DNA of 64,000 nucleotides, taken from the NCBI GenBank assembly GCA_029204225.1, contig CM055102.1:23095390-23159389 (forward strand), in the 5' to 3' direction. The DNA is from Diphasiastrum complanatum. Lineage: Eukaryota > Streptophyta > Lycopodiopsida > Lycopodiales > Lycopodiaceae. The position numbers were made by a program, and so were the translations under genes. Positions 211 through 48,696 of this stretch are shown here, one piece after another. Position 1 is the first letter of the stretch. Every line of letters begins with the position of its first letter. The notes beneath the pieces were generated by a model. It saw only the letters and a program-made list of their open reading frames with translations. It ran no database searches and was not told where the DNA came from.

Positions 211-1583
211 TGTGGTGACTTGGTTTCAACAATTTGTTAATGATTTCGGCTTTTTATTGCTAAATCTTAAGCCTTTGCTTTGTCATTGTGTATAGCCTAA
301 TCATAAGTTGCATTCAGTGGGGTACAACTTAAATTTGTTTTGTGGCATTAAGACAGCCCTTTTACTGCTTATAAATTTGGCATATGGCTGTGCCTAGCTG
401 TTGCTCTTTTAAGTTATAAAAGTCATTGGTGTAAGAAGGCACGAACCTTTGTCAAGCTGTACTTAAAGGTTATAGTCATATTCTAAAGCCCAGTCGCCAT
501 TCTCGCATTGTTCGGCTTTGTGTGAGAGTCAAGTTTCAATGGCAGTTTTAGCGGCTGAACCCGCCATCTTTGCAATTTTTTTTAAGAAAACTGCTATTTT
601 CAAAGGCAAGGCACTACAAATCTAAAGGGCCATTGTCGCACATTGCCCACTATTCAAGATTTTTGGAGCCTCGTTCATTCTTTAGTGCCTACCTCGAAGC
701 ACCTCCACGCAGCCAGAGACTCCCACCTTCGCATTTCTTAAGGATAGTTGTCGCACTTCTTAAAGGCAGCTTTGCACTTTTCTCTCTCTCTCTCTCTTCG
801 GATTCTTGTAGGGCAGGCTTCGCTCTTTATCTCCAGCCAACCATCGTGCTTCTTTTGGAGCGTGAACCAGCAGTTAGGGCTGCTTGATCTTATGATCATT
901 CTCCAGGATGCAACCATATACAAAGATAGATTTCAGATGGCATATGCAATGACAACCATCTTCGTTCTTTAGCGACAGTTACCAGTAGCCAACGACAGTT
1001 CCAAAGGCAGTTTGGGCAGCCCACGCATTTCCATCTCAAGCGGCTGTTTGCAGGTGTCATGGCTATTTGCAATGGAAAGCGACTTATTTCACCACTCTGT
1101 TGGGCTGTTTTCAGACAGTTTTGAGCCAGTGGCCCTCATTCATCCTTCATACAGTTGTTTTCCTTGCACAAGGCAGTGACCTTGAATTCCAACTGTCGGC
1201 TATTTGTTTGCAGCATTCCATTGGCTCATGGGCAATCATTTCCAGATGTCAAATATTTATTTGTTCTCTCTTTGGAGACAGTTATCAAAGCCCATAGCCT
1301 CTAGCACATTTTCTATTTGGCTATAAGTTGTCAGACTTATGCCATTGTAAATCATTCAGACACAATGTAGAATAGAGGCTCAGAAGCTTTGTTGGTGCTT
1401 TAATGTAGATTTACTGCTTTTTCTATTCATCTACAAGTTCAAAACCTTTGTGTACTCAGATTCTTGTATAGAGGTGTAGCAATCCCTCTTCTTTGTAGTG
1501 TCTAGACTGTAATGGATATATCTTTGTACTTTGCAAATGGTGAATACAGATAATGTAAATCTGAGTGTTCTGAATCACACACA
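211..1583 (+). mobile_element. Putative 3' LTR
   Basis: Starts TGTGG right after the polypurine tract. A plausible right end is the ACACACA at 1577-1583. The interior is non-coding, with a short CT run at 780-797 and many loosely repeated GGCAGTT/ACAGTT words. No second copy is in the window, so the right border rests only on the TG...CA rule and could be elsewhere. Confidence 0.4.
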
Positions 1584-2104
1584 ATTTGTTTCTATTGTGA
1601 ATACCTTATGTGCTTTTCATGGTGATTCATTTTGGTAATAGGAAGTTTATGGCACTGTATTGTTTGTGCCTATACACAGTGACTTGGACTGGAATTTATT
1701 AGTGAAGTGTCTCTAGCCTTCAATCTTGTGATTTGCGAAGATCATAGGAGTTAGATTCATGATAAGCTACTGTCAAGATAACGGAAACACTGTGTGGCTT
1801 TCACTTTTGCCGAAGTATTTGCTTTCTTGAGTTCACTCCCATTTGAATATGAAAACCATAATGAAGTATTCAGTATTTTTCTCCTGGGTGTTTGATTTCT
1901 TTATATGGTTGTATTGGCAGCCCCTTGTGGAAACATCTATTGATGACCAGTTTGCAATCACTTCTCCTCTCCACTCCATTCCTTCTTAGTTATTTCTGGT
2001 TTTGCACTAATAATGACAGTATTAGCCTTTTTATTGCTCTCTAGTAGGAACGATACCCATTTATACTACAAATATCAATCATTTTGTTGTTCGCATGCTG
2101 CGAC
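1584..2104. other. Non-coding stretch, nothing recognised
   Basis: AT-rich DNA between the LTR above and the truncated 5' LTR of the next element. I see no coding frame, RNA gene or clear repeat in it. Confidence 0.5.
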
Positions 2105-2412
2105 AAGATCAATATAGATAATTTCTCTTGTTGTCTGATCTTGAATGCAAATGCTTCTGCTGTTAATCATGTGTCTGAGTTTTCTTGTTCATTTTAATTT
2201 CGCACCTTGGTTGAAACTATGTTGAATGCTACATTAATTTTAGAAATGTAGATCAACAGTGCCTGACTACATTGTGGAGGATTGTAGGAGTGATTCAGCT
2301 GGCAGTGTCCAACGATCGCATCTAAACTCCATCCGAGTTGCAAGAGGATCGTGGTTCCTTCGAGAAAGCTTCACGGATGCAAAATCCAAATCGCAATTCA
2401 TGAACCTCATCA
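2105..2412 (+). repeat. 5' LTR remnant of beta1 (3' portion only)
   Basis: The LTR ends in CA at 2411-2412, just before the primer-binding site. Its first 93 bp match the far right end of the 3' LTR. Nothing upstream of 2105 matches that LTR, so the 5' LTR has lost most of its left part. Confidence 0.6.
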
Positions 2413-2413
2413 G

Positions 2414-2424
2414 TGGTATCAGAG
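2414..2424 (+). other. Primer-binding site (initiator Met-tRNA)
   Basis: TGGTATCAGAG is complementary to the 3' end of plant initiator methionine tRNA, the usual primer of copia elements. It sits one base after the LTR end and fixes the + orientation of the element. Confidence 0.85.
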
Positions 2425-2527
2425 TTGGTCATCCTATCATATTCTGACATAGCCAAGAAGCTAGTAGATCCAAGAGGCTACCATTCAAACTAACAACCAT
2501 CAACAAGAGAAAAGACTCCAAGAAGCA

Positions 2528-3405
2528 ATGGCAATCAGCAACATGCAGAGCAAGATCTGCACAATACTTGATTCTTCAAGATCTAACTTTCTAGCCTAGA
2601 AAGTTATAACATCTTTGATACTCAAGGGTGAAGGAATATTCCCCTGGGTGGATGTCACAAAAGAAATGCCTACGACAACAGGCAAGGAGCTACGTGAATG
2701 GAGGGAGAAAAATGACAAGGCAGTAGCCTTGCTATCATCTTCCATCGAAGATAGTCTCACACTTGACCTGGATACACTCTCCAAAGCTAAGGAGATGTGG
2801 GATGCATTACTCAATAGATTTTAGACAGAATCAAGAAGTCAAATCATGATGTTGGAAGATCAGCTGACAAATTTGCAGTGGGATGGAAAATACCTCACTA
2901 CTTTCGTAAGAAAGATGAAGGATCTTTTTCTGTTACTACATAACTATGGAATAGAGAACGTTGTGTCAGTTGAGAAGCAACTCACATACTTGTTGAGAGC
3001 CTTACCCAGATCATTCCAGACGACAAGAACCCTGCTCAAGAAAGATCCTACCATGAACCTCGAAAAGGCGATTGTCGAGATTCGAGAGGAAGTCGAGGCC
3101 AGAGAACATGTTGATTACAAAGATGGTTCTGACCAGGCCCTCTACGGCAACAAAGAAAAATCAAAGAAGCAATTTAAACCTAAGAGGGAGTCCAATCAGA
3201 GGTAGGATCGTGACCAGCAAGCAGAGGGAACAAGCAAAGGCAACTGGAAGACAAAAGGGAGATCGAAACAACAAGGTGCAAACAAGAAGACTTGTGTGAG
3301 ATGCAGAAGAGATGGGCATACAGTAGATACCTGTTGGCTCAATCCCAAGATTGAGTGTAGCCATTGCCACAAAAAGGATCACGCAGCCATGGATTGCCAC
3401 TAGAA
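2528..3405 (+). pseudogene. copia gag (UBN2 type) with two zinc knuckles, broken
   Basis: Gag would form the retrotransposon particle and bind its RNA. The first ATG (2528) follows the primer-binding site by about 100 bp. The frame is broken early by TAG near 2597 and again at 2822-2824; the following stretches align by eye with the beta2 gag at 11331. Two CX2CX4HX4C knuckles follow, CVRCRRDGHTVDTC (about 3294-3335) and CSHCHKKDHAAMDC (about 3356-3397). Frame changes between 3200 and 3300 separate the capsid part from the knuckles. Non-functional as it stands. Confidence 0.8.
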
Positions 3406-3429
3406 CCCGAGAAACAAGTCAGCATAGAA

Positions 3430-4920
3430 CAGACAGGAGAACAACAATAGTTCATCCTATGTCGAGGAGCCCAAGAGATCAAAAAATGGGCAAAGAAAGA
3501 ATAAACAGAAATCGTTCGACTGCCTATATCTGTGAAGACGTGTGTGCAGCATCAACATTTGACACACATGAGGTGATCCTAAATTCAGGAGCCACCTCAC
3601 ACTTTGTGACATCAAGATGAATCATGTCTGATTTCAGAAGTGCAGATCCCTCAAGATTCATAGTTCTTGGAGATGGATCTAGACATCAAGTGAACGGTAT
3701 TGGTTCACTATGGTTCAACACCAATGGCAGAGATAAACGGCTCGAAGACATTCTGTTCGTGTCTACTCTGCAGCAAGACTTGCTCTTTGTAGCAAGAATA
3801 GCAGATGTAGAGATGCGTGTGATGTTTTCTGACGAAGCATGCAACGTGATTGATGCAAGTACCAGTACTCTCATCGCTCAAGGCAGAAGAAAAGGGAACC
3901 TATATTATTTGAAGGTATGCCTACTTGCAGATCAAGTGCATCAGACTCATGATGACTCGCTAGACACTCTGTGGCATAGAAGACTTTGCCACATAAACTC
4001 AATGGCACTTACCAGGCAATCCATCATGGAGTGATAACAGGGGTCAGCATCTCAAATGCAACCAGTTTGACCACCTGTGATGCATGTTTTAAGGGCAAGA
4101 TGTCAGGCACACCATTCATCAAAGACTCCTACAAAACGACAAAGATTCTAGAGCTAGTGCACTCTGACATCTGCGGACCATTCAACATGATCTCAATAGG
4201 AGGTTCAAAGTATTACATAACCTTCATTGATGATTATAGAGATTTTCCAGAGTGTACTTCATTTAGAATAAATTTAAATCACTTGATAAACTCACAGAAT
4301 ATGTGAATTGGGTAGAAAGATGCACAAGCAGCAAAGTGATGCAGATCAGAACAGATCAAGGTGGCGAATACATCTCGAATCGCTTCACTGACTTCTACAA
4401 TGATCGTGGCATCATTCACAGAAGAACTACAGCCTACACATCGCAGCACAATGGTGTTGCTGAATGAAAGAACAAGACCCTGATGGAAGTAGCTAGATGC
4501 ATGATGGCCTACTCGAAAGCTCCAAGGGCACTGTGGGCTGAAGCAGTAGCTACAGCCGCATACATCCAGAACAGAACATGCAAGTATGGTGTTTCTCACA
4601 CGACACCATATGAGCTATGGTGGGGTAGAAATCCCAACCTGTCTCACGTTAGAATCTTTGGCTGTGCAGTTTATGCACATATTTTTGATAAGCTTCGAAA
4701 GAAGTTTGATGAGAAAGCCAAGTAGGGATGCTTGGTAGGTTATGACAACAACTCGTCATACTATAGAGTCTACATGCCAAACACGAACACTGTGAAAACA
4801 ATGAGAGATGTCAGATTTGATGAGAGCAGGACAATGGCCAATGACGATCCTGTCAGTTACAAAAATCTAGAGAGATAGTACTATGACCTGCCGCCAATGA
4901 CAGAGGGAGCAGAGTAGGAA
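3430..4920 (+). pseudogene. copia protease and integrase region, broken
   Basis: The aspartic protease motif reads NSGATSH at about 3582, where the family has DSGATSH: the catalytic Asp is Asn. A pre-integrase motif LWHRRLCHIN follows near 3970. The integrase core is recognisable: VHSDICGPF (about 4155) with the first Asp, RTDQGGEY (about 4348) with the second, and NGVAE (about 4450) with the Glu, followed at once by a stop in the basic stretch. The C-terminal part VRIFGCAVYAH (about 4648) and GCLVGY (about 4728) flank another stop at 4723. At least four stops or shifts make this a dead copy. Confidence 0.85.
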
Positions 4921-5149
4921 CACAAAAATGAAGATTTTTGAGTCGTCTCCCATTTGAGCAACGAATCTGATGAAGAAAGATTCGAGAGGCAACCTGCTGT
5001 CGCGGTTCTTGTAAACCAAAATGGTTTCGAACCAAGAAGAGCAGACAAGGGCAAAGGCATATCTGTTCCAGGAGGATCTCCCAGAAGATTGACAAGACCA
5101 TGAAGAGTGCCAACAAGATATGTGCCAAGCAGCTCAGCTTTCACATCAG

Positions 5150-6690
5150 AAGAGTTCTGCAGGTTCAGTGGCAAATCATAGACTTTCGAGGAGACGATTG
5201 AAGGTCCAGAAAAGAACAGATGGATCCATGCCATGAATGAAGAGATGGAGTCTATGAGGAAGAACCAGGTATGGACGTTGGAGCCATTACCACATAAGCG
5301 CAAGACTGTCACATGCAAATGGCACTTCAAGCTCAAATACGGACCAGATGGGAATGTAACAAAATACAAGGAAAGACTGATAGCGAAAGGTTTTTCTCAG
5401 AGATACAATATTGACTAGTCTGAAACCTTCTCTCCCGTCATCAAATATTTGTCCCTACGTCTGTTATTTGCATATGCAATAGTTTATGACCTCAAGATCC
5501 ACATTGTGGACGAGAAGACAACCTTCTTGCATGGCGAATTAGACGAAGAGGTCTACATGGATCAACCCCTAGGATGTCTCGAATTTACTTCCTGACTATG
5601 CATGCAGAATACATAGAAGCATCTATGGTCTGAAACAATCAGCCCGACAATGGTACAAGAAGAAAGATCAAGTCCTGAAATCACTAGGATTCAAGCCTCT
5701 GTTGGCTGATTCCAATGTCTATGTTAGAGTTACAGATGGGCAGATCATCATTGTGGCAATGTATGTGGACAACACTCTAATACTTTGCAGGAGTGAGCAG
5801 CTAATTGCAGATGTTACCTAGGCTTGTAAATTGAAGGGACTATGAGGGAGGTAAGTTATACCTTCACCAGTCCAGATACACCCAGAATATCCTAGAGGAA
5901 TTTGGGATGCTGAATTGCAAAGGAGCGAACACTCCAATGCTCGCAGGGACGGTGCTGACAAATGATGACTGTCCAAAGACTGAGAAAGAGAGAGAACATA
6001 TGTAGCTCACACCTTACAGGAAGCTGATAGGATTACTAATTTACCTTGTTGACAATACATGTCCTGATATTGCTTATGTAGTATTCAGGATGAGCCAATT
6101 CTGCACGAATCCAAGCTCGACACATTGGAAGATCGCAAAACAAATTTTGCAATATCCTCAATTAACGAGGGATTATGGCTTGTGTTATTGTCGTGGTGTA
6201 GGTTTCAGGATACTTTCCTACAACGATGCTAGCTGGGCATCTCTCAAGGATGACTGTAAAAGCGTCTCGGGAGGATGCACCATCGCATCAGGAGCAACAG
6301 TTCTATGGGTCAGCAAGAAACAGACCGTTGTAGCCCAGTCATCCTACGAAGTAGAATATGTTGCAGTAGCAAAGATGGCCAACGAAATAATCTGGCTAAG
6401 ACAGTTCCCGGACAAATTGGGTGAAACAAGGAACGAGCCCCTGGTCTTGCAGATGGACAACACCTCTACAATACAGCTGACGAAAGATCTTGTGTTCCAT
6501 TCCAAAACAAAGCACATTGCGATCAAGTACCACTTGATCAGGGATCTAATTGAGAAAAAGATGCTGCAGAACACCTTCATCTGAACAAGAGACATGGTTG
6601 CTGACATCTTCACTAAAGCCCTAGACAAAGGACTCTTTAAGAGACAAAGGAGCAGTCTCGGGATCGTAAAGCTATTATGCTTTGAGAGGG
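5150..6690 (+). pseudogene. copia reverse transcriptase and RNase H, broken
   Basis: The RT begins around NEEMESMRKNQVWTL (5236) and continues through KERLIAKGFSQ, with a stop at 5416-5418 just before the SETFSPVIKY motif. The catalytic box reads YVDN (about 5762), not YVDD, so the second Asp is lost. Frameshifts occur around 5600-5800 and 5820-5860. RNase H from about 6100 is the best-kept part: SYNDASWAS, SSYEVEY and QMDNTS supply the expected acidic residues, and the tail ALDKGLFKRQRSSLGIV is the normal copia end. It is broken by TGA at 6582-6584. Confidence 0.85.
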
Positions 6691-6708
6691 AGCTGAAGAA
6701 ACAGAATG

Positions 6709-7908
6709 TTTCTAATTACAAAGCCTTGCTAGCTTTCAGCCCTCAGTCCGACAAAGACATTTGCACAAAAAGTTTCGCGAACACGAAAGTCAAAGCAGAC
6801 GAAGACAAATAGTTTGCGAACATGAAAGATTCACGAACAAGAATCTTTTGTGTTCCAGTATGAGAACGAAACCTTCTCTTGCCCTCCATGCTCCAAAGAG
6901 TACCAATGAGATCATGCAAGTACATAGAAGTACAGATATCTGATCTGATGGCATGACTTCAGCAGATACATTTTAGGTCGTGGCGAATCTGCCACTCTTG
7001 CAATTCCCTGATTAGTTGTAGATGCTTAATCACCCTAATCTTAGATTTACATAGAGCGACCATACTTACTGGATGATACTTGACATATAGATCAACAAAA
7101 TACACATACAATACAAGGTAGTAGTCTGATGCTAGTAAGTAATCAAGACAAAATACAGACAACAAGTCTGCCTGCGTTCGAGACGAGCTCTGTGATCAGG
7201 ATCCATAGAGATCCAACTGTCCGCTAGTAAAGCGAGACGATTACTCGTGCGTTGGTGTGGGAGAAACACATGGTTCGCGAACAAGAAAGATTCATGAACG
7301 AGAATCTTTTGCGGTCTAGTACGAGAGAAGGCCAATGACCAAAACAAAACCAACGACAGAAATGAAACCTTCTCTTGCATGCATGCTCCAAACAGTACCA
7401 GCAAGATCATGCAAGTACCAAGAAGTACAGATAACTGATCTGATGATATGACATCAGTAGATACCTTTTAGGTCGTGGCTAATTTGCCACTCTTGTAATT
7501 CCTTGATTAGTTGTAGATGCTTAATCACTCTAATCTTAGATTCACATAGAGCGACCATACTTATTGGATGATACTTGACATATAGATCAACAGAATACAC
7601 ATACAGTCTAATGTAGTAGTCTGATGCTAGGAAGCAATGAAGATGATATACAGACAACAACTCCGCCTGCGTGCGAGACGAGCTTTGTGCTCAAGATCCA
7701 TAGAGATCCAACTGTCCGCTAGTAAAGTGAGATGATTATTTGTGAGAGAACCATGTTTCTCCCACGCCAATGCACTGCGTGGATTTGCATGCAGTGCTTG
7801 AAGAAAGCAGAGAAAGATCAATATAGATAATTTCTCTTGTTGTGTCTGATCTTGAATGCAAATGCTTCTGTTGTTAATCGTGTGTCTGAGTTTTCTTGTT
7901 CATTTTAA
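6709..7908 (+). repeat. 3' LTR of beta1, internally duplicated and cut at its right end
   Basis: After the pol end, a purine-rich stretch (about 6686-6708) precedes TGTTTC, the likely LTR start. The LTR holds a tandem duplication of about 460 bp and ends, by comparison with the 5' remnant, about 215 bp short of its true end, where gypsy sequence takes over at 7909. The left border is tentative. Confidence 0.5.
6813..7772 (+). repeat. Tandem duplication, period about 461 bp
   Basis: Unit 1 is 6813-7273 and unit 2 starts at 7274. Both contain, in the same order, TTCGCGAAC/TTTGCGAAC, the stretch around TGATCTGATG, TAGATGCTTAATCAC and the block TAGAGATCCAACTGTCCGCTAG. Divergence is roughly 10 percent by eye. 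The end of unit 2 (about 7744-7772) carries the 28-bp block of the unit 1/2 boundary in inverted orientation. Confidence 0.75.
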
Positions 7909-9830
7909 AATCCATAGATATACTTTTCCATCATTTTTGAGGAATATCTAGGGGATGTAACAACTCTCTAGTCTTTAAGCATTCAGCTTTGACTAATTGA
8001 CAAGGTCTACATTTAATCACATAAGACTCGACAAATGGCTTGAGTTTTGGGCAATAAAACTCTCTTCTGATCAGGTCCAAAGTCATGTGTATGTCCGGAT
8101 GACCTACAGAGAGAACATCATGGCACTCATAAAGAATCCTCTTCTTTATCTCATCATCCACTGGTACACAAATCCATTCCCAAATAGTAAACCACCTCGA
8201 ATAGAGAATTATTCTGCTATTTTCTTATCTTTCTTAGGAACCTAAGACCCTTGTGAGTAAATCTCTATTCCACTCTCATTTTTTCCTTTCTCCACCATTT
8301 CCAGATGGGACCAAAATGAGAATCCGATTTACACCTCTCTCTTAGTGAAAGATATAGATCAATGGAAATCCGGGTGAATGAAAGTTCATTTAGTTCACCA
8401 ATGCAACTAAGCGCATCCGCAACTTGGTTAGAGCTGCCCTATCGGATCTCATGATCAAATTTATGCATAAGCTCAGCCCAGCGAGCTTTACAACCCCTTA
8501 GATGGTTCTGATTACAGAAGTACTTTAGAGACTGGTGATCTGTACACACTATAAACTGACTACCATAAAGGTAATGCCTCCAAGTCTTAAGTGCATGTAT
8601 CACAACTCCTGTAGAAGAACTGGCCCTATCGCCGAATCACTCACGTCAGTTCGCACGACGTAAGGTATATCAGAAAAAAAAATTTCACAATCTATAAAAC
8701 AGGAGTTGAAGCAACCATTTGCTTGAGTTTCTCAAAGCATTGGTTCAATTCATGATTCTACTCAATAGGTGGACTAGGTTGACCTCTCTTTTTCTTTTAG
8801 TAACTCTGCCTTTGGTCAAATCACTTATAGGTGCCGCAACTTTTGCATACCCTTCAATTGACTTACGAAAGAAAACTATAAAACCAAGAAAAGATTTAAC
8901 TTCTCTATCTATCTTTGATATTGACTACTCAAGCATTGTTTTGACCTTACTCTCGTCAATCTTCAATCCACTATAGGTGATCTTATGACCGAGGTACAAT
9001 AACTCATGCTTAATGAACTCACATTTAGATTCCTTAGTATAAAGTTTCTCTCATTTGAGAATATCTAAGACAATCTTAAGATGACTTAAATGCTCCTTAA
9101 GTGTCCTACTGTAAATGAGAATGTCATCTAAGAATACAACCACACACTTCCCTAGATAAGGACAAAAAAGATCATTCACCATTTGTTGGAATGTAGCTGG
9201 TGCATTTGTCAACCCAAAAGAAAGCACGAGAAATTCATAATGACCGAATCTCGTCTGAAAACCTGTCTTTTGCACATCATTCAGATGAATCCTGATCTGA
9301 TAATATCCAGTTCTAAGATTTATCTTTGTGATGTATTTAGCTCCACCTAATCGATCTACCAAATCATCCATACGAGGCAAATAATATTTATTTTTATAAG
9401 TTACCTTATTCAACCCGTTGTAGTCCACACACAACTTGAAGCTTCCATTTTTCTTTGATTTAAGAAGAACACGAACACCCCAAGGTGACTTACTTGATTG
9501 AATATGACCCATCTTCAAGTAATTTTCAATTTTCTTAGTAATCTGTATCTCTTCTTTCTGAAATAACCTATAAGGTTGTCTAAAGATAGGGTGACTACTT
9601 GGAATTAACTTTATCTTATGGTCTACCGATCTGGACGACGGTTTTCCATCAAGTAATTCTTTTGAAAATACATCTTTAAATTCAGACAATATCTTATTCT
9701 TCTCAATTTGCTCTTGATATAAGTCTCCAGAGTTAAGAATCTTTGACAATTCACAATTACTTAGATGCCTTGCAGATAAATCCAAAATCAGCTTAGCAAA
9801 TAAAGAATAACCTTCATACTACGAATAAAA
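7909..9830 (-). pseudogene. Ty3/gypsy pol relic: RT, RNase H, integrase N-terminus
   Basis: On - the order is RT, RNase H, integrase, which defines gypsy. RT runs from about 9785 with [39 protein letters not shown], the catalytic [11 protein letters not shown] (YxDD-type box near 9115-9145) and ends near 9051. RNase H is broken by stops at 8240-9050 but shows the motifs TDHQSLKYF and VADALS. The integrase zinc-binding domain (HHCC) is at 7931-8161: H, GH, FYCP and CRPCQ. The relic stops inside the integrase at 7909, where the beta1 LTR begins, and is cut at about 9830 by AT-rich DNA. The 244-codon RT frame is the longest intact piece. Confidence 0.9.
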
Positions 9831-9839
9831 AATTTCTAT

Positions 9840-10610
9840 TACATTAAACATGGTGACCAAAAAAAAGAGAAATGACATGAAGATCCATTTTTTTTAATTT
9901 TTTAATTTTTTTTAGAATGCCTATATTCAAAATGCTTTGCAAATTTTATATTATAATGCAAAAAATATATCATTTTTTGTTAAAAGCTAAAATCATACTA
10001 AAAATGTTAGATATAGAATTTTGACAACATATTCAATTTTGCACGTATTTTAAACTAATTAATAAAGAACAAAATCATTAAATATAGAAATACTAAAGTC
10101 AACAACAACAATTATTTTAATCATTTAAAAACTATTTAGTATCAAATATTTTAAAATGATTCGAAAAGATTTATGTAATTTAGGTCTATAACACATAGAC
10201 TATAAAATATCTACTTAAATACACATCTAGAACTACATGACTTTTGAAAATTGTAAAATTTTAAAAAAAGAATCTTATCCTTAGTTACATCATAATTAAG
10301 AAGTTGAAATTTTATAAATCAGTTTTAATATTTAAAAGATAAAAAAATATTACCAAGTTTGATAATATTCATTAATTTTTTGAGAATACAATTTTAGAAT
10401 AAACTCAAAACAATATTGTCATTCCAAAATAACATTCATTAAAATAAACATTTATTAAATGTATATTTAAAGAATAACATTGAAAATAAAATTTAAAATA
10501 TTTTAGATAGCAAATAATATAAAAAAATACAAATGAATTTAAAAACTTTATTTCACAAAAGTTTGAAATTCATATATAATTTTCAAAATGATAAAATAAT
10601 CATGTACATT
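9840..10610. other. AT-rich non-coding DNA
   Basis: Very AT-rich with frequent A and T runs. It lies just 3' of the methylase-like exon and probably includes its 3' untranslated and downstream sequence. I see no gene or repeat structure in it. Confidence 0.5.
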
Positions 10611-10615
10611 GCTTC

Positions 10616-11243
10616 TCAAAAATCATCAAGGTCGTTGACGTCTTTGGGATTTTCTGGAGCAGCTTCAGTAGACAGAACGACAACCTCTTCAACAATTTTT
10701 TCTACAATAATAACATTATAATCTTAAACTAGGACATCTGCAAAGTCCCTTGTGTCACCCATTTTCTCACTAGCGGGAGGTTGCGGTTCTTTCGATTGAG
10801 GAATTATACAGTCTTCATCATCTGTAGACTTTTTTGCCTCAGCTAATTTGTCTGGCAAAACTGATATGAATTTCATTCGTATTTTTATAAATTCTACTAA
10901 ACTAGAATCTAATTCTACAGTAGTAATATCTTTGTCTTTTGGCACAGCGCATGCGCTTGTAGTGCCACTTCCGCTAAACAAATCTAACACCCAATCTGTT
11001 GGGTGGAAAAAAATTTCAATAATATGATTAATCAATTGTTGTGGCTTTTGATAAGGACAAGACACGGAACCTATCATCGAATTTTTCAATTTTTTTGTGA
11101 CTGTTGAAAATTGGAACAAATTTCCAAAGCTAGTCAAGCCGGTAGTGTTGTAATACAGCACAGATCGTTTGCCATCCAATGAATAATAACCAATAGTTAT
11201 ATTCAGTCGTGCACCACCAGCATTGCGAATATTGGGCTTGTAT
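10616..11243 (-). CDS. DNA N4/N6-methyltransferase-like protein, last exon (possibly a pseudogene)
   Basis: The translated exon carries the C-terminal half of an N6_N4_Mtase domain: PYQKPQQLINHIIE, then VLDLFSGSGTTSACA, the AdoMet-binding motif I (about 10960-10990), then an acidic-ended strand TTVELDSS and EFIKIRMK. In this family the enzymes put methyl groups on cytosine N4 or adenine N6. A strong splice acceptor (T run plus GTAG) borders the exon at 11243, where a split codon starts. The catalytic SPPY/DPPY motif would lie in missing upstream exons: copia gag sequence begins less than 100 bp upstream. A TAA at 10724-10726 interrupts the frame, but the same frame stays open for 35 more codons to TGA at 10616-10618, with an acidic tail. 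Real gene fragment versus transposed pseudogene cannot be settled here. Confidence 0.65.
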
Positions 11244-11330
11244 CTACAAAAAAAAAAAAAATTATTATTTTAAACAATGATCTATGCTAAACATAGAACA
11301 TATAAAACAATGAAAGAATTGTAAACCAAT

Positions 11331-12165
11331 AATGAGACTCAATCTTGTAATCAGATCATGTTCTTGAAAGGCCAATTAACTTACCTACAATGGGACGACA
11401 AAGGCCTGAATACATTCGTGCGAAGGATTAAAGATCTGTTTATTTCCTTGTAGAATTCTGGTGCAGAAAATACAATTTCTAAGGGAAAACAGCTTAGTTA
11501 TTTTCTTCGAGCCCTATCCAGGTCATTCCACACAACTCGAATCTTATTGGTAAAAGATATGACAATGACACTTCAAAAAATAATAGACGGAGTTAAAGAG
11601 GAATTAGAAGCTCGTGAACGCTATGACAATAATGGTGATTCTAAAAATGCTCTATTTACTCAAAAGAATAAATCTTCTAAGAAGTCTAAGTTTAAGAGGG
11701 AGTCATCTAAGAAGAATGAGTCTAAGACAAATGAACAACAATCTGGAAAACAACAGAAGAATTCTGGTGATAAGAAGATCTGCAACAGATGTAGAAGGTC
11801 AGGTCACACAGAAGAAAAGTGTTGGTTAAATCCAAAGATTGAATGTATTCATTGTCATAAACGGGATCATACAGTAGTAAACTATTATCAAAATCCTATA
11901 ACAAAAAGGAACAGAATCGAAGCGAACCTTCAGATTCAAACTATGTTGAAGACAAAGCAGAAGGCTCCAGAGCAGCAGAAGACAGGACAACAAGAAACTC
12001 AGCAGCTTGTGTTGGTGCTGATCTATGTTGTTCATCTAATTTAATTCGAGAGGTAGTACTTGATTCGGGAGCAACCTCACATTTTGTTTCTCGAAACAAA
12101 TATTGTCTAAGTACAAGAAGATGAACTATTCAAAATTTATTATACTTGGAGACAATTCTATCTGA
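11331..12165 (+). pseudogene. copia beta2 fragment: gag, two zinc knuckles, start of protease
   Basis: Aligns by eye with beta1 gag from about its residue 100 onward: QLTYLQWDDKGLNTFVRR, RALSRSFHTTRILL. A long open stretch at 11547-12044 ends in two knuckles, CNRCRRSGHTEEKC (intact) and CIHCHKRDHTVVNY, whose last Cys is Tyr. The protease follows with VLDSGATSHFVS in a shifted frame (about 12058), keeping the catalytic DSG. The fragment stops near 12165, where LTR-like DNA starts. No LTR of its own family adjoins. Confidence 0.8.
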
Positions 12166-44016: not shown

Positions 44017-47000
44017 TCACCAATAGTCATTACAAGAACATGTCCCATCCTTCGAGACATGATGAAACCGTTTCCCATCTCTCACAATAATGTCTCTTCC
44101 TGTCACCTTACAGATGAATTTTGTTGCCACGTGACAATCAGGACACACCCTGAGATTCTTGATGATCCGCAAAGGTGTTCCCGGAGGTGTGGTTATAAGC
44201 CCATAACAAATTGCCAGCCTCTCACTATGAGTGTTAAGCAACCATTCTTTTTCCTTTTCGCTTGCCACATTATGTAGTACCTGTGAAGTGTCAGGTACAT
44301 AACCTGCCTTCTTAATTGCTGCTGTCAATCTTTCCAACTCAGCATATATTTCCTTTGACCTGGGGTGTGACCTATCTCGAACCATAAATTCATGCATCTT
44401 CCCATGAACCTCAATAGCGCTAATACCTGGCTGCTTTTTTATACCCTTCTCTGCCATCACTCTTCTCACCCTGGCTTTTGCTTCCCACCTGCCAGATGAA
44501 GCATATATATTAGAAAGCATGACATATGGTGCGGAAGTTTGTGGATCTAACTGAAGAAGTTTCTCTGCTGCTCGTTTCCCTCTATCTACGTCCCCATGTA
44601 CTCTGCAGGCTCCAAGCAAGGCCATCCACATTGCTTTATCATCTTTGTATGGCGTCTTGGCAATAAAGTCTTCAGCCTCATCCAAGCGTCCTTTCTGGCC
44701 TAGAAGATTGACCATCGAACCATACTGCTGAACACTCTGTTGTATGCCTTTGTCAACAATCTTGGAATTGAAATAATCACAAGCTTCTTCCAATGGGCCC
44801 ACATTACTGATTGCGTTAAGAACATTTGCTAAAGAAGCGTTATTAGGCTTTATGCCTTGCTGCTGCATCTGCGCAAATAGTTGAAGAGCAAATTTGCCGC
44901 TTCCCTCCTGAGCATAAGCTGAAATCAATGTACTCCATGTGACAGCATCCCGATTCAGCATTTTATCAAAAACTTCTTTTGCTTCTTGCAAACTTCCACA
45001 TTTAACAAACATGTTCACCATAACGTTGCCAGCTTCAACATCCAAGTCAACTTCGTAGTCATCAAGGCGGGTGCTGATCATTTTGGCATCTGAAAGGACT
45101 TTCAATTTAGCACATACATTGAAGATACCCAACAAATTGGTTCTATTTGGCCTTCCACCTTCCAGCTGCATTTGCTTAAAGAGCAAAAGAGCATCTTTGT
45201 CAAGATTATTCTGGATATATAACTTTACCATGGTATTCCATGCACTTGAATCTCGGTGTGAAATTTTCTCAAACATTTGGCGAGCATCTGCTACAGTCCC
45301 ACATCTACCATACATATCCACAAGAGCAGTCCCCACGACAACATCTGTTTCTAAACCCTTCTCAATCGCACAAGCCTGTATAAACTTACCATCTTCTAAG
45401 GATGTGGCTGTGGTACAGGCACTCAGAAGGTTGACAAAGGTGAACCTATCTGGTTCCAAATCTTCTTGCTGCATCGTCTTGAAGAGTTCAAGGGCCACCT
45501 TCTGATTCCCCTCCCGAGCATAAGTAGCAATTATTGCATTCCAAGCAGCAACATCTCGTTGAGAAAGTTTGTCAAATGTTTGGCGAGCCTCCTCACGGCT
45601 ACCACAATTGTCATACATACTGATGAGAGAAGTGCCCACTACAACATCTAGCTCTAAGCCTTCTTCACGAATTAAATTATGGATATTTCTACCCTCCACA
45701 AGCTCTTCTGGGCTGCTACAAGCACCCAGAATGCTCACAAAGGTCGTTTTGTCATATTGCATACCTTCTTCTGGCATCTGGTAAAAAAGTTTACGAGCCA
45801 TTGAGGAATCCCCAATCTGAACACATGCTGCAATCATGGCATTCCATGTTGCAGTACTCCGTTCAGGCATTCTGTTGAAAATTTCAAGAGCACACTGAAG
45901 ATCTCCGCATCGCCCATACATAGAAATGAGAGCATTCCCTACAGCAAGATCTGACTCATATTCATTTTGGATGATGTGCACATGAATAATCTTTGCTTTT
46001 GCCAATTGAGACGGATTGACAAATGCACCAAGCAGATTCAAGAATATGTGCTTGGTTGGTTTTATCCCTTCTTTCTGCATAGAGTCATAAAGTTGAGCAA
46101 CCTTATTGCCATCTCCATTATTGGCATACGCGGCAATCATGGCATTCCATGAAGCCACATCTTTCTCTGGCACTCTGTCAAAAATTTGTCGTGCTTCATC
46201 CAAATTCGAGAACTTTCCATACATGTAGATAAGTGCAGAACTTACAAGAACATCACGTTCCCACTCAGTGCCAAAAAGCGATGAATGAAGCTGCTTGCCC
46301 TCTGCTAATAATGCACAATTCGCACATGCATTGAACAAGTGTACGTAGGTATGCTTGTTACCCTTAAAGCCTTCACGCTGCATTCTGGCAAACATTTCAA
46401 GAGCTCTCAGACCATTGGATTGATGAGCAAAAGCGCCAAGCAAAACATTCCAAGACGACAAATCCTTCTTAGGCATTCTTTCAAATAGCACTTGAGCCTC
46501 ATCAACAAGGTCACACTTTATATACATATGCATGAGAGTATTGACTACATCTATGTCCAAAGATAAACCCCTTTCAACAATTAGGGCATGAATTAACTTG
46601 CCCTCTGCAAGTGAAGCAGGGCCAGACAAAGCTCTAAGGATGCTTAACACAGTGGACTTGTTTGCTACTAGACCTTCTTGCTGCATTTGGTTAAATAATT
46701 CCAGAGCTTTTTTCTCTTGACCGTTCTCTCCGTATGCTGCTATTAATGCATTCCAAGCTTCAACTTCTTTTTTGACTAGTTTTTCAAAGATTTCTTGGGC
46801 AGTATCCAAGCTTTTGCACCTCCCATACATGCGAATAAGAGCACTTGTGACTAGCAAGTCTGAATCAAATCCGTTTTCAACTATCAAAGAATGAATAAGT
46901 TTGCCTTCTGCTAAAGATGCCGGGCTCGTACACGCCCTAAGAACAGTAATTAGTGTTTCCTTGCTCGGAGGAACACCCTCCCACTGCATTTGGCTAAATG

Positions 47001-47589
47001 CTTGAAGTGCAGCTTTCTCCCTACCATTTTCGACTAGAGCTGTAATCATTTCAGTCCATGTCTCAACATTCCTGTCTGCTATCTTTTCCAAAATCTTCCG
47101 TGCATTCTCCAGACTTCCATACTTTCCATACATGTGGATAAGAGCAGTCCCAACATGAACATCAGATTCCAACTCAGTATATGCAATACTTCGATGGATT
47201 CGTATGCCCTCTTCGAGGGTTTCAGAAGTCTGAGAGCATGCCCAAATACGGCTAAGCAGTGTTGGTATATCCACATTCGACACATCTGGCCTCTGAAAGG
47301 GCACTATTGGTGGCCGCCTGCGCTGATGAGAATATGCCCCATTCACGGGGATTGAAGAACGCGCTTCCTTTTGAACAACTGTGCCAAAACTTCTGCTACT
47401 AGGTGATACTCTGTAATACATGCTCACAACAAGGTTGGTGTGGACACTGTGTTGTTTGTGGGCCTCCCATTTGCCTGATCTGATGCCACAGGTTTGGGTG
47501 GGGGGCCTCCCTTTTGGCAACACTCTCAAACCGCAGAACTCCGGCAGTAGCCGTGCGCAGTGGGTTTGGTAGCCCATGACCAGCACCAT
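44017..47589 (-). CDS. PLS-class pentatricopeptide repeat protein with DYW domain
   Basis: One intronless frame of 1190 codons. Residues 1 to about 100 are Arg/Ser-rich with few acids, fitting an organelle transit peptide. A long run of P-L-S pentatricopeptide triplets with about 100-residue spacing follows, each with the pattern W-N-A-(M/L)-I, (E/A)-G-K-x-I-H and ALI-x-MYG(K/R)-C. After the last repeats come the E1/E2 region and PG box (GYVPDTS), then a complete DYW deaminase domain: HSE at 1121-1123, CPDC at 1149-1152, HH near 1176, CSC at 1184-1186 and the terminal DYW at 1188-1190. All zinc and catalytic residues of the family are present. DYW proteins of this class bind one or few organellar transcripts through the repeats and deaminate a cytidine to uridine. 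The number of repeats is at the long end for the class. No frame lesion is seen, so I take it as functional. Target and organelle are unknown. Confidence 0.95.
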   Translation of the reverse strand: MVLVMGYQTHCARLLPEFCGLRVLPKGRPPTQTCGIRSGKWEAHKQHSVHTNLVVSMYYRVSPSSRSFGTVVQKEARSSIPVNGAYSHQRRRPPIVPFQRPDVSNVDIPTLLSRIWACSQTSETLEEGIRIHRSIAYTELESDVHVGTALIHMYGKYGSLENARKILEKIADRNVETWTEMITALVENGREKAALQAFSQMQWEGVPPSKETLITVLRACTSPASLAEGKLIHSLIVENGFDSDLLVTSALIRMYGRCKSLDTAQEIFEKLVKKEVEAWNALIAAYGENGQEKKALELFNQMQQEGLVANKSTVLSILRALSGPASLAEGKLIHALIVERGLSLDIDVVNTLMHMYIKCDLVDEAQVLFERMPKKDLSSWNVLLGAFAHQSNGLRALEMFARMQREGFKGNKHTYVHLFNACANCALLAEGKQLHSSLFGTEWERDVLVSSALIYMYGKFSNLDEARQIFDRVPEKDVASWNAMIAAYANNGDGNKVAQLYDSMQKEGIKPTKHIFLNLLGAFVNPSQLAKAKIIHVHIIQNEYESDLAVGNALISMYGRCGDLQCALEIFNRMPERSTATWNAMIAACVQIGDSSMARKLFYQMPEEGMQYDKTTFVSILGACSSPEELVEGRNIHNLIREEGLELDVVVGTSLISMYDNCGSREEARQTFDKLSQRDVAAWNAIIATYAREGNQKVALELFKTMQQEDLEPDRFTFVNLLSACTTATSLEDGKFIQACAIEKGLETDVVVGTALVDMYGRCGTVADARQMFEKISHRDSSAWNTMVKLYIQNNLDKDALLLFKQMQLEGGRPNRTNLLGIFNVCAKLKVLSDAKMISTRLDDYEVDLDVEAGNVMVNMFVKCGSLQEAKEVFDKMLNRDAVTWSTLISAYAQEGSGKFALQLFAQMQQQGIKPNNASLANVLNAISNVGPLEEACDYFNSKIVDKGIQQSVQQYGSMVNLLGQKGRLDEAEDFIAKTPYKDDKAMWMALLGACRVHGDVDRGKRAAEKLLQLDPQTSAPYVMLSNIYASSGRWEAKARVRRVMAEKGIKKQPGISAIEVHGKMHEFMVRDRSHPRSKEIYAELERLTAAIKKAGYVPDTSQVLHNVASEKEKEWLLNTHSERLAICYGLITTPPGTPLRIIKNLRVCPDCHVATKFICKVTGRDIIVRDGKRFHHVSKDGTCSCNDYW

Positions 47590-48696
47590 GGATGGAAACC
47601 GCTACGCCTAGCCTTAGCTACTAGCAGAAACAACAACAAAATGCCGTAATCACTTGCAACCAGCTAAAGCTTCTGGTGCTTGCTTGGACTTACACGATCT
47701 TTGTATATGCCTCTTGACTCGCCTCCAACCCAAGCAAAGCGAATGTGGGCATTAGGAGTGCTCCAGACCCTAAACCCTAATACAAAGATACACCAGATTC
47801 TGGTCGTTGAGAATCAATAAATGTAATGGAACCCTAGTCCTAAAGCTCTAGCCCAAAATATAGTCTGCTAGTAAAAAAAACAAGCAAAAACACACCAAAA
47901 TCCTAACTAAACATCACCGTTACTACACCTCCAGCAATCTTGCAGACATCAAACACACCATTCTCAAAACACGCAACAGAGCAATATTAGCTGCACAGAA
48001 ATCTTCAGTGACAGGTTTAAACCCTAAGACGTGAAATTGAGCTCACAAATCCGATGCAATAACTCGCACTTTTCGAATCTCAGCTAAATGCAATGAACGT
48101 GAAAATGTAAACCTTCTGTTTTTTGTGACTATATTCCAGCTACAGGCACTGCGATCTTTTGGGCTTGACAGGTTTTCAACGGCGGACTTCAAAGCGCACA
48201 ACAGGCTTACACAATGAAATTCTTTAACGACATTGAAATGCGTTACAAAAACACGATCATAGCCCCAAATCTGCAGCTTTTCAGGCGAATGCAATCACAG
48301 AAACCTAAAAGATCAACTTAAAACAAACTGAGATGCGATTTGGTGTAGCGACAATGGAAAGAGTACAGGGACCTTGCTCCAGAGCACTCTATGGGCTGAT
48401 TTTAGATGAAATCTCCAAATGCCACTGCATCTTCGGCCACTAAGCTTCTGCGATCAGCCTCCTTCACAAAACCAGAAAAGAAGTACAGAAGCTAAACTAG
48501 ATGATCTCTATTCCCCGCATTCCAGACCTTTCTCTCTCTCGAAGATTCTAGAGTTTTCTTCCTTGTTATTGACCGGCTCCTGCCGGTCACCTAGGATTTA
48601 GGGCAAACGTGGCCTTAATTAAAAGGAGCAACGCGTTTTGTTCATTGTGGGCGTCTGAAGTGATAAGGATACGATTCGCTTGGCTCTTGAGTCCTA
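47590..48696 (-). promoter_or_regulatory. Presumed promoter and 5' untranslated region of the PPR gene
   Basis: On - upstream of the ATG there is no frame or transposon signature for about 1.1 kb, in contrast to the rest of the window, which suggests it is kept for gene expression. A small hairpin GACCGG...CCGGTC lies at about 48573-48590. No TATA box could be placed with confidence. Confidence 0.35.

Follow-up and report, generated by a model that had tools for sequence, protein, structure and literature searches.

An amino-methyltransferase exon in the Diphasiastrum complanatum genome as a probable relic of a many-copy DNA transposon

The window analysed in the current study is a 64,000-nucleotide stretch of the lycopod Diphasiastrum complanatum (GenBank assembly GCA_029204225.1, contig CM055102.1, positions 23,095,390 to 23,159,389), which contains a single methyltransferase exon flanked by sequences of other mobile elements (Table 1). 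From its motif I and PYQKP block, the original prediction had taken this exon for the C-terminal half of an N6_N4_Mtase enzyme, an assignment that is borne out by profile searching. The Pfam family N6_N4_Mtase (PF01555) matches the exon with 48.6 bits (E 1.3e-12; curated cut-off 26.7 bits), the match covers profile positions 135-217 of 221, which is the C-terminal half only, and no other family was found in the exon at E 0.001. A PHROGs search likewise returned DNA methyltransferase families, and a PDB search matched RsrI (E 4.4e-8) and CcrMI (E 9.6e-8), in agreement with the Pfam class. Read on the minus strand from position 11245, the frame runs RYKPNIRN...CPYQKPQQLINHIIEIFFHPTDWVLDLFSGSGTTSACAV..., and the peptide is given as RYKPNIRNAGGARL...PYQKPQQLINHIIEIFFHPTDWVLDLFSGSGTTSACAV. 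The acceptor reads ...TTTTTTTTTTTTTTGTAG, directly followed by ATACAAG with 11243 as the first exon base; its quality, also remarked upon originally, is evident from the relatives as well, since seven of the eight examined have AG in the same place (L010 is the exception). The exon limits first proposed, 10616 to 11243, held in part: the start agrees with the acceptor, whereas the end passes through the TAA at 10724-10726, and the homologous exon ends at about 10619. In the alignment, the window exon also has a five-residue gap near its start relative to other copies.

Table 1. Positions of the methyltransferase exon, the transposon fragment and the adjoining elements within the window
Feature	Position	Strand	Basis
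Surviving right-hand (3') transposon fragment: right end, 3' part, last methyltransferase exon	9847..11307	-	right-end pattern; DNA similarity
Right terminal inverted repeat, + strand reading AACATGGTGACC...	9847..9877	-	pattern search
Last methyltransferase exon, motif I DLFSGSGTT and PYQKP block	10619..11243 (homologous extent)	-	translation, Pfam, alignment with other copies
In-frame TAA stop removing the exon's C-terminal tail	10724..10726	-	other aligned copies stay open there
Splice acceptor AG behind T-rich tract	11244..11245	-	sequence comparison with relatives
Repeat adjoining the fragment's left side, another element	11304..12160	+	CCHC motif, Copia gag-like by eye
Reverse transcriptase frame RVT_1 (E 4.9e-23), Gypsy-like by eye	9051..9818	-	Pfam; just outside the transposon's right end

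The similarity of the window to other loci does not end with the exon. At the DNA level, the similarity to L009, L014 and L026 falls between 9969 and 11307, and in exon E, the segment to which the window exon corresponds, the nearest relative is L026 (87% identity over 523 columns), followed by L009 and L014. When compared with two long relatives, the only element sequence present in the window is the last exon and the nearby 3' sequence; the same DNA and translated comparison found no upstream exons, putative transposase or left end in the window. The repeat adjoining the fragment on its left yielded no Pfam match, and is found near L026 and L027 as well. As judged from its sequence, the window copy represents a DNA transposon present in many copies, of which it is a truncated pseudogene. 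Because a lone exon remains and carries a stop inside, the copy should make no enzyme and is expected to be inert.

The extent of this family became evident from a PF01555 search of the source genome (1,744,706,496 bases in 5176 contigs), in which the best 150 of 1605 loose candidates were scored. All 150 exceed the Pfam cut-off, including the window copy (E 1.6e-9), so the domain match in the window is not a chance one. The matches of this best 150 occur on all 24 of the first-numbered contigs, which together hold 123 of them. A second genome search was made with exon D of the methylase gene (best 150 of 2309 candidates scored), and the two lists combined give at least 278 distinct places with a methylase exon, at least 225 of them on contigs 1-24, a count to be read with the caveat that small contigs may repeat chromosome sequence. 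Twenty-two places are common to both lists, and in every one exon D precedes exon E on the same strand. Head-to-tail arrangements, either of the element or of the methylase portion, also occur, as observed in L017 and L020 and the stretches downstream of them (L029 and L031); the spacing between such matches is about 7.5 kb on C6 and 4.4-4.6 kb on C22 (G000:C22:12333634-12347569).

The original prediction had also argued for a nuclear gene rather than contamination. The nuclear part of that claim stands, given the spliced appearance of the exon and its location in a large genome rather than in a bacterial contig, but the copy is a many-copy transposon pseudogene and not an ordinary host gene. 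Bacterial contamination is ruled out by the introns, the spread over large contigs and the low identity to phage and plasmid methyltransferases. All 609 matching phage records are less than 60% identical, as are the 5000 plasmid records covered (of at least as many matching), and among the matches listed identity is 29-38.5%, over parts of the C-terminal half. A search for prokaryotic and viral relatives with back-translated patterns gave 38 and 86 pattern-matching stretches, none of which was confirmed.

The anatomy of the methylase gene was read from 20 loci of 10 kb, mostly picked for a good score and an open frame, whose comparison revealed five conserved coding segments, A to E. Segment D carries QGDxRxI...TLCIADIPY and segment E carries FSGSGTT; motif IV therefore precedes motif I, which is the beta order. 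Both halves match the profiles of bacterial and phage beta-class methyltransferases (RsrI, CcrMI, YhdJ and that of Lactococcus phage P1048), and in a profile comparison with four phage methyltransferases the motif IV half (D) reached E 4.7e-6 and the motif I half (E) reached E 1.6e-13. To our knowledge, such bacterial and phage enzymes have neither introns nor a transposase partner. In the present gene, the D-E intron has a GT donor in 6/6 and an AG acceptor in 8/9 of the copies printed, and the acceptor preceding D is AG in 4/5. Segment A resembles ParB/Srx by eye, and hhalign pairs its GGIHSLQA and AWDHN with ParB motifs, though below significance (E 0.076, probability 0.7%; unrelated control E 0.19); searches of Pfam, PHROG, PDB and phage sequences returned no significant match for it. 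None of the 22 copies read (the 20 loci, L044 and L045) has all five methylase segments uninterrupted.

A search of the same genome for upstream exons with SPPY or DPPY had been suggested originally. Relatives of the window copy, from which exon D is absent, do possess an exon with a D-x-P-Y motif, but by eye the motif is DIPY in 13 of the 17 copies showing it (the exceptions are L025, L028, L045 and L053) and SPPY in none. It is plausible on sequence grounds that DIPY is a catalytic variant, differing from the classical D/S/N-P-P-Y, because DLPY occupies the equivalent place in the enzyme of phage P1048. For the window copy, these motif counts, together with its truncated, many-copy nature, speak against what was originally envisaged, a rare gene of the host related to the N4-methylase of liverwort sperm. 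A related scenario, a single methylase acquired horizontally from bacteria or viruses and working as the liverwort or bdelloid N4 methylases do, would account for the Pfam domain being the same, for the beta-class order and for the named matches being bacterial, plasmid and phage methyltransferases. It is nonetheless exceedingly improbable for the window copy in view of the at least 278 distinct places with a methylase exon, the truncation and internal stop of this copy, and the predominance of DIPY here versus the SPPY described for the bdelloid enzyme (PMC8885841). Orthology of the window methylase to the bdelloid or liverwort N4-methylases is unlikely.

One locus on C17, L044, retains the element in complete form, with both ends and both genes contained in 9084 bases (oriented 804 to 9887, about 9.1 kb). 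Its terminal inverted repeats are AACACGATGAC and AACATGATGACC, such that the element reads from AACACGATGAC... to ...GGTCATCATGTT, and the consensus of the inverted ends is AACAYGATGAC. The right end pattern is also found in the window and in L020, and no right end was found in L045, the second long copy. The left ends of L012, L013, L014, L017 and L025 begin at nearly the same base, and their flanks are unrelated. L044 is flanked by a 4-bp target duplication, AACT, a length that rests on one insertion. When its flanks are joined with one AACT removed, they read through as PFEKWGIDFMGPIHPASSSRKHHIVVATNYFTKWAEARVVAKDNAKETTWFLLE, which is Gypsy integrase-like by eye; a Pfam scan of the 67-residue peptide across this empty site gave no family at E 0.01 or better. 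The uninterrupted 47-base site occurs at six other genome places at 3 mismatches (backward control 0). When up to 3 mismatches are allowed, the 31-base left end of subfamily 1 is present 772 times (393+379) in the genome, and its backward control 0 times; these were counted by end sequence alone, and copies lacking a methylase may account for some of them. The inverted ends, the 4-bp duplication and the retained introns rule out Helitron or LINE-type mobility.

Translated comparison of both strands revealed a second gene in the 5' half of the element, on the strand opposite to the methylase. Pfam DUF7869 (PF25273) was matched by three of the 10 putative transposase pieces scanned (E 2.3e-16, 5.9e-18 and 2.6e-19), and the DUF7869 gene displays the conserved acidic motifs VIDGMDQ, LQLDN and VGHTHDQID, with LQLDNTARENKN among the sequences of its pieces. 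Such pieces lie upstream of the methylase, always on the opposite strand, in 7 of the 20 loci (L010, L012, L013, L014, L016, L017 and L021), loci that belong to three subfamilies; the fetched stretches of the other 13 contain none. The linkage is also apparent genome-wide. The best 150 of 2309 exon D candidates and the best 150 of 2750 putative transposase candidates form 18 pairs no more than 12 kb apart, 15 of them divergent and three of other layout. Contigs 1-24 hold 16 of these pairs, compared with a mean of 0.28 and a maximum of 3 over 2000 random rotations. With the best 150 of the PF25273 search in place of the latter list, seven pairs are obtained with exon D, five of which are divergent (null mean 0.27, maximum 3 in 1000), and the best 150 PF01555 and PF25273 matches form three pairs within 20 kb, two of them divergent. 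All of the best 150 of 2953 PF25273 candidates exceed the cut-off, and the best matches represent a related lineage; one of its members, L042, shares 28-35% identity with the pieces of L044 and L045. This related lineage (L036-L043) has VGHTHEDID, ADNCWRENKNKF and long open frames, for example 471 aa in L042. At two places on C6, G000:C6:63469111 and 63678703, exon D is followed 4.2 kb downstream by a putative transposase match on the same strand, as another layout or a rearrangement. The one of these non-divergent loci that was read, L053, has putative transposase pieces on the minus as well as on the plus strand and appears rearranged by eye. Inverted pairs of putative transposase matches about 4.2-4.3 kb apart were encountered at G000:C21:21671492/21675766 and G000:C1806:32435/36675.

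These features place the exon within a DNA transposon with short inverted ends, two divergent genes and a beta-ordered amino-methyltransferase. Because the methylase is carried beside a transposase-like gene, it has to be regarded as part of a mobile element rather than as an ordinary host gene. The suggestion that transposon-borne methylases be included in a phylogeny of the exon has proven fruitful. One might conversely regard the copies as a host methyltransferase multigene family grown by tandem and segmental duplication and rich in pseudogenes, a scenario compatible with the retained introns, the head-to-tail copies after L017 and L020 and the roughly 4.5 kb spacing of matches on C22. However, such a family would be highly improbable alongside the sharp common left end with unrelated flanks at five loci, the 772 dispersed left ends, the target duplication with its six empty-site matches and the linkage to the DUF7869 gene.

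Three subfamilies can be distinguished in exon E, and selection was compared between and within them, with the qualification that copies were partly chosen for open frames, which biases dN/dS downward. Overall, comparisons between subfamilies yield median dN/dS values of 0.06-0.29, and those inside subfamily 1, the largest, yield 0.34-1.01. Between subfamilies, the median for exon E is 0.15-0.18 (dS 1.2-2.1); 17 pairs of exon D yield 0.10 and four pairs of exon A yield 0.11, and the DUF7869 region has values of 0.06 (2 pairs) and 0.29 (4 pairs). A separate computation for exon E with 194 pairs gave a median of 0.18. Within subfamily 1, they are 0.43 for exon E, 0.38 for exon D, 0.34 for exon A and 1.01 for the DUF7869 region. 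Within subfamily 2, where dS is high, 21 pairs of exon E give 0.22, and exon D (3 pairs) and the DUF7869 region (1 pair) both stand at 0.11; within subfamily 3, six pairs of exon E give 0.26 and the one pair of exon D gives 0.37. The contrast of within versus between is clear only in subfamily 1, since dN/dS is low inside subfamily 2 as well. This pattern would fit a lineage that needs both proteins while its single copies decay, most clearly so in subfamily 1. It also bears upon whether the methylase could be an unused passenger whose conservation derives from recent common descent. No copy read is intact in all segments, as a passenger might be expected to appear, but exons A, D and E have median dN/dS of 0.10-0.18 between subfamilies separated by dS >1.2, as opposed to 0.34-0.43 within subfamily 1, and a passenger role is thus improbable.

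The reading we favor, with a probability of roughly 0.87, is that the window exon survives from a decayed DNA transposon in which a putative DUF7869 transposase is accompanied by a presumed accessory amino-methyltransferase. Several steps can be proposed for such an element. Firstly, the DUF7869 protein would act as the transposase. Secondly, the methyltransferase, an accessory enzyme predicted to be active, would modify adenine N6 or, with lower probability, cytosine N4 of DNA within or close to the element; adenine is the preferred candidate because motif IV has an aspartate. Thirdly, the mark on the element DNA may help it to escape silencing or may couple or time transposition to replication. 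Provided that the methylase is active, we consider the odds of self-marking to be about even. More tentative, and rather doubtful, is the possibility that the element represents an undescribed plant DNA-transposon superfamily, defined by its DUF7869 transposase and 4-bp duplication, in which the methylase marks its own DNA and transposition or silencing escape depends upon that modification. The enzyme might instead antagonize or rewrite host chromatin genome-wide, with the element not being its main target; the sequence contains nothing that restricts the target, and the long N-terminal region could conceivably read DNA or chromatin, though we judge this alternative unlikely.

Mobile elements with DNA-modifying enzymes are known, and the element proposed here shares some of their qualities. 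According to PMC5890265, dinoflagellates and charophytes harbor retrotransposons with C5-DNMTs, which in Symbiodinium are reported to occur in hundreds of copies. These are likewise eukaryotic mobile elements with a DNA methyltransferase, whereas the present one belongs to the DNA transposons and its enzyme, encoded with introns, is an amino-methyltransferase of bacterial type. TET/JBP dioxygenase-encoding DNA transposons of fungi, as portrayed in PMC12730594, similarly carry an accessory DNA-modification enzyme, but of a different chemistry, methylcytosine oxidation. The bdelloid N4CMT, according to PMC8885841, is also a PF01555 beta-type amino-methyltransferase with introns in a eukaryote, yet its gene belongs to the host and its product combines SPPY with a chromodomain, while the present gene has mostly DIPY and resides inside a transposon; no chromodomain was detected in the methylase pieces scanned with Pfam. 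PMC8885841 also assigns DPPY to bacterial N6A enzymes and SPPY to most N4C enzymes, and describes both specificities as having evolved repeatedly. The Marchantia sperm 4mC methylase, as cited in PMC8885841 and PMC12344493, is another amino-methyltransferase gene in a land plant. Compared by description only, it lacks extra N- or C-terminal domains and acts genome-wide, unlike the present gene with its long N-terminal part and mobility. Our literature search found no paper describing such an element and none naming DUF7869, and an amino-methyltransferase under purifying selection in a many-copy plant DNA transposon is unpublished as far as we have searched.

Whether transposons write 6mA or 4mC in plant genomes is a contested matter, of which the element offers a direct test; if self-marking is true, this genome would carry element-made 6mA or 4mC, a use not known in plants. 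Caution is warranted too, as anyone screening plant genomes for rare N4/N6 methylases of the host may land on transposon relics. Elsewhere in the window, the minus strand at 44017-47601 encodes an intact PPR-DYW gene. Its 1194 aa are read in one frame and comprise PPR repeats, E motifs and a DYW deaminase domain; it is of the organelle RNA-editing type, consistent with a land plant.
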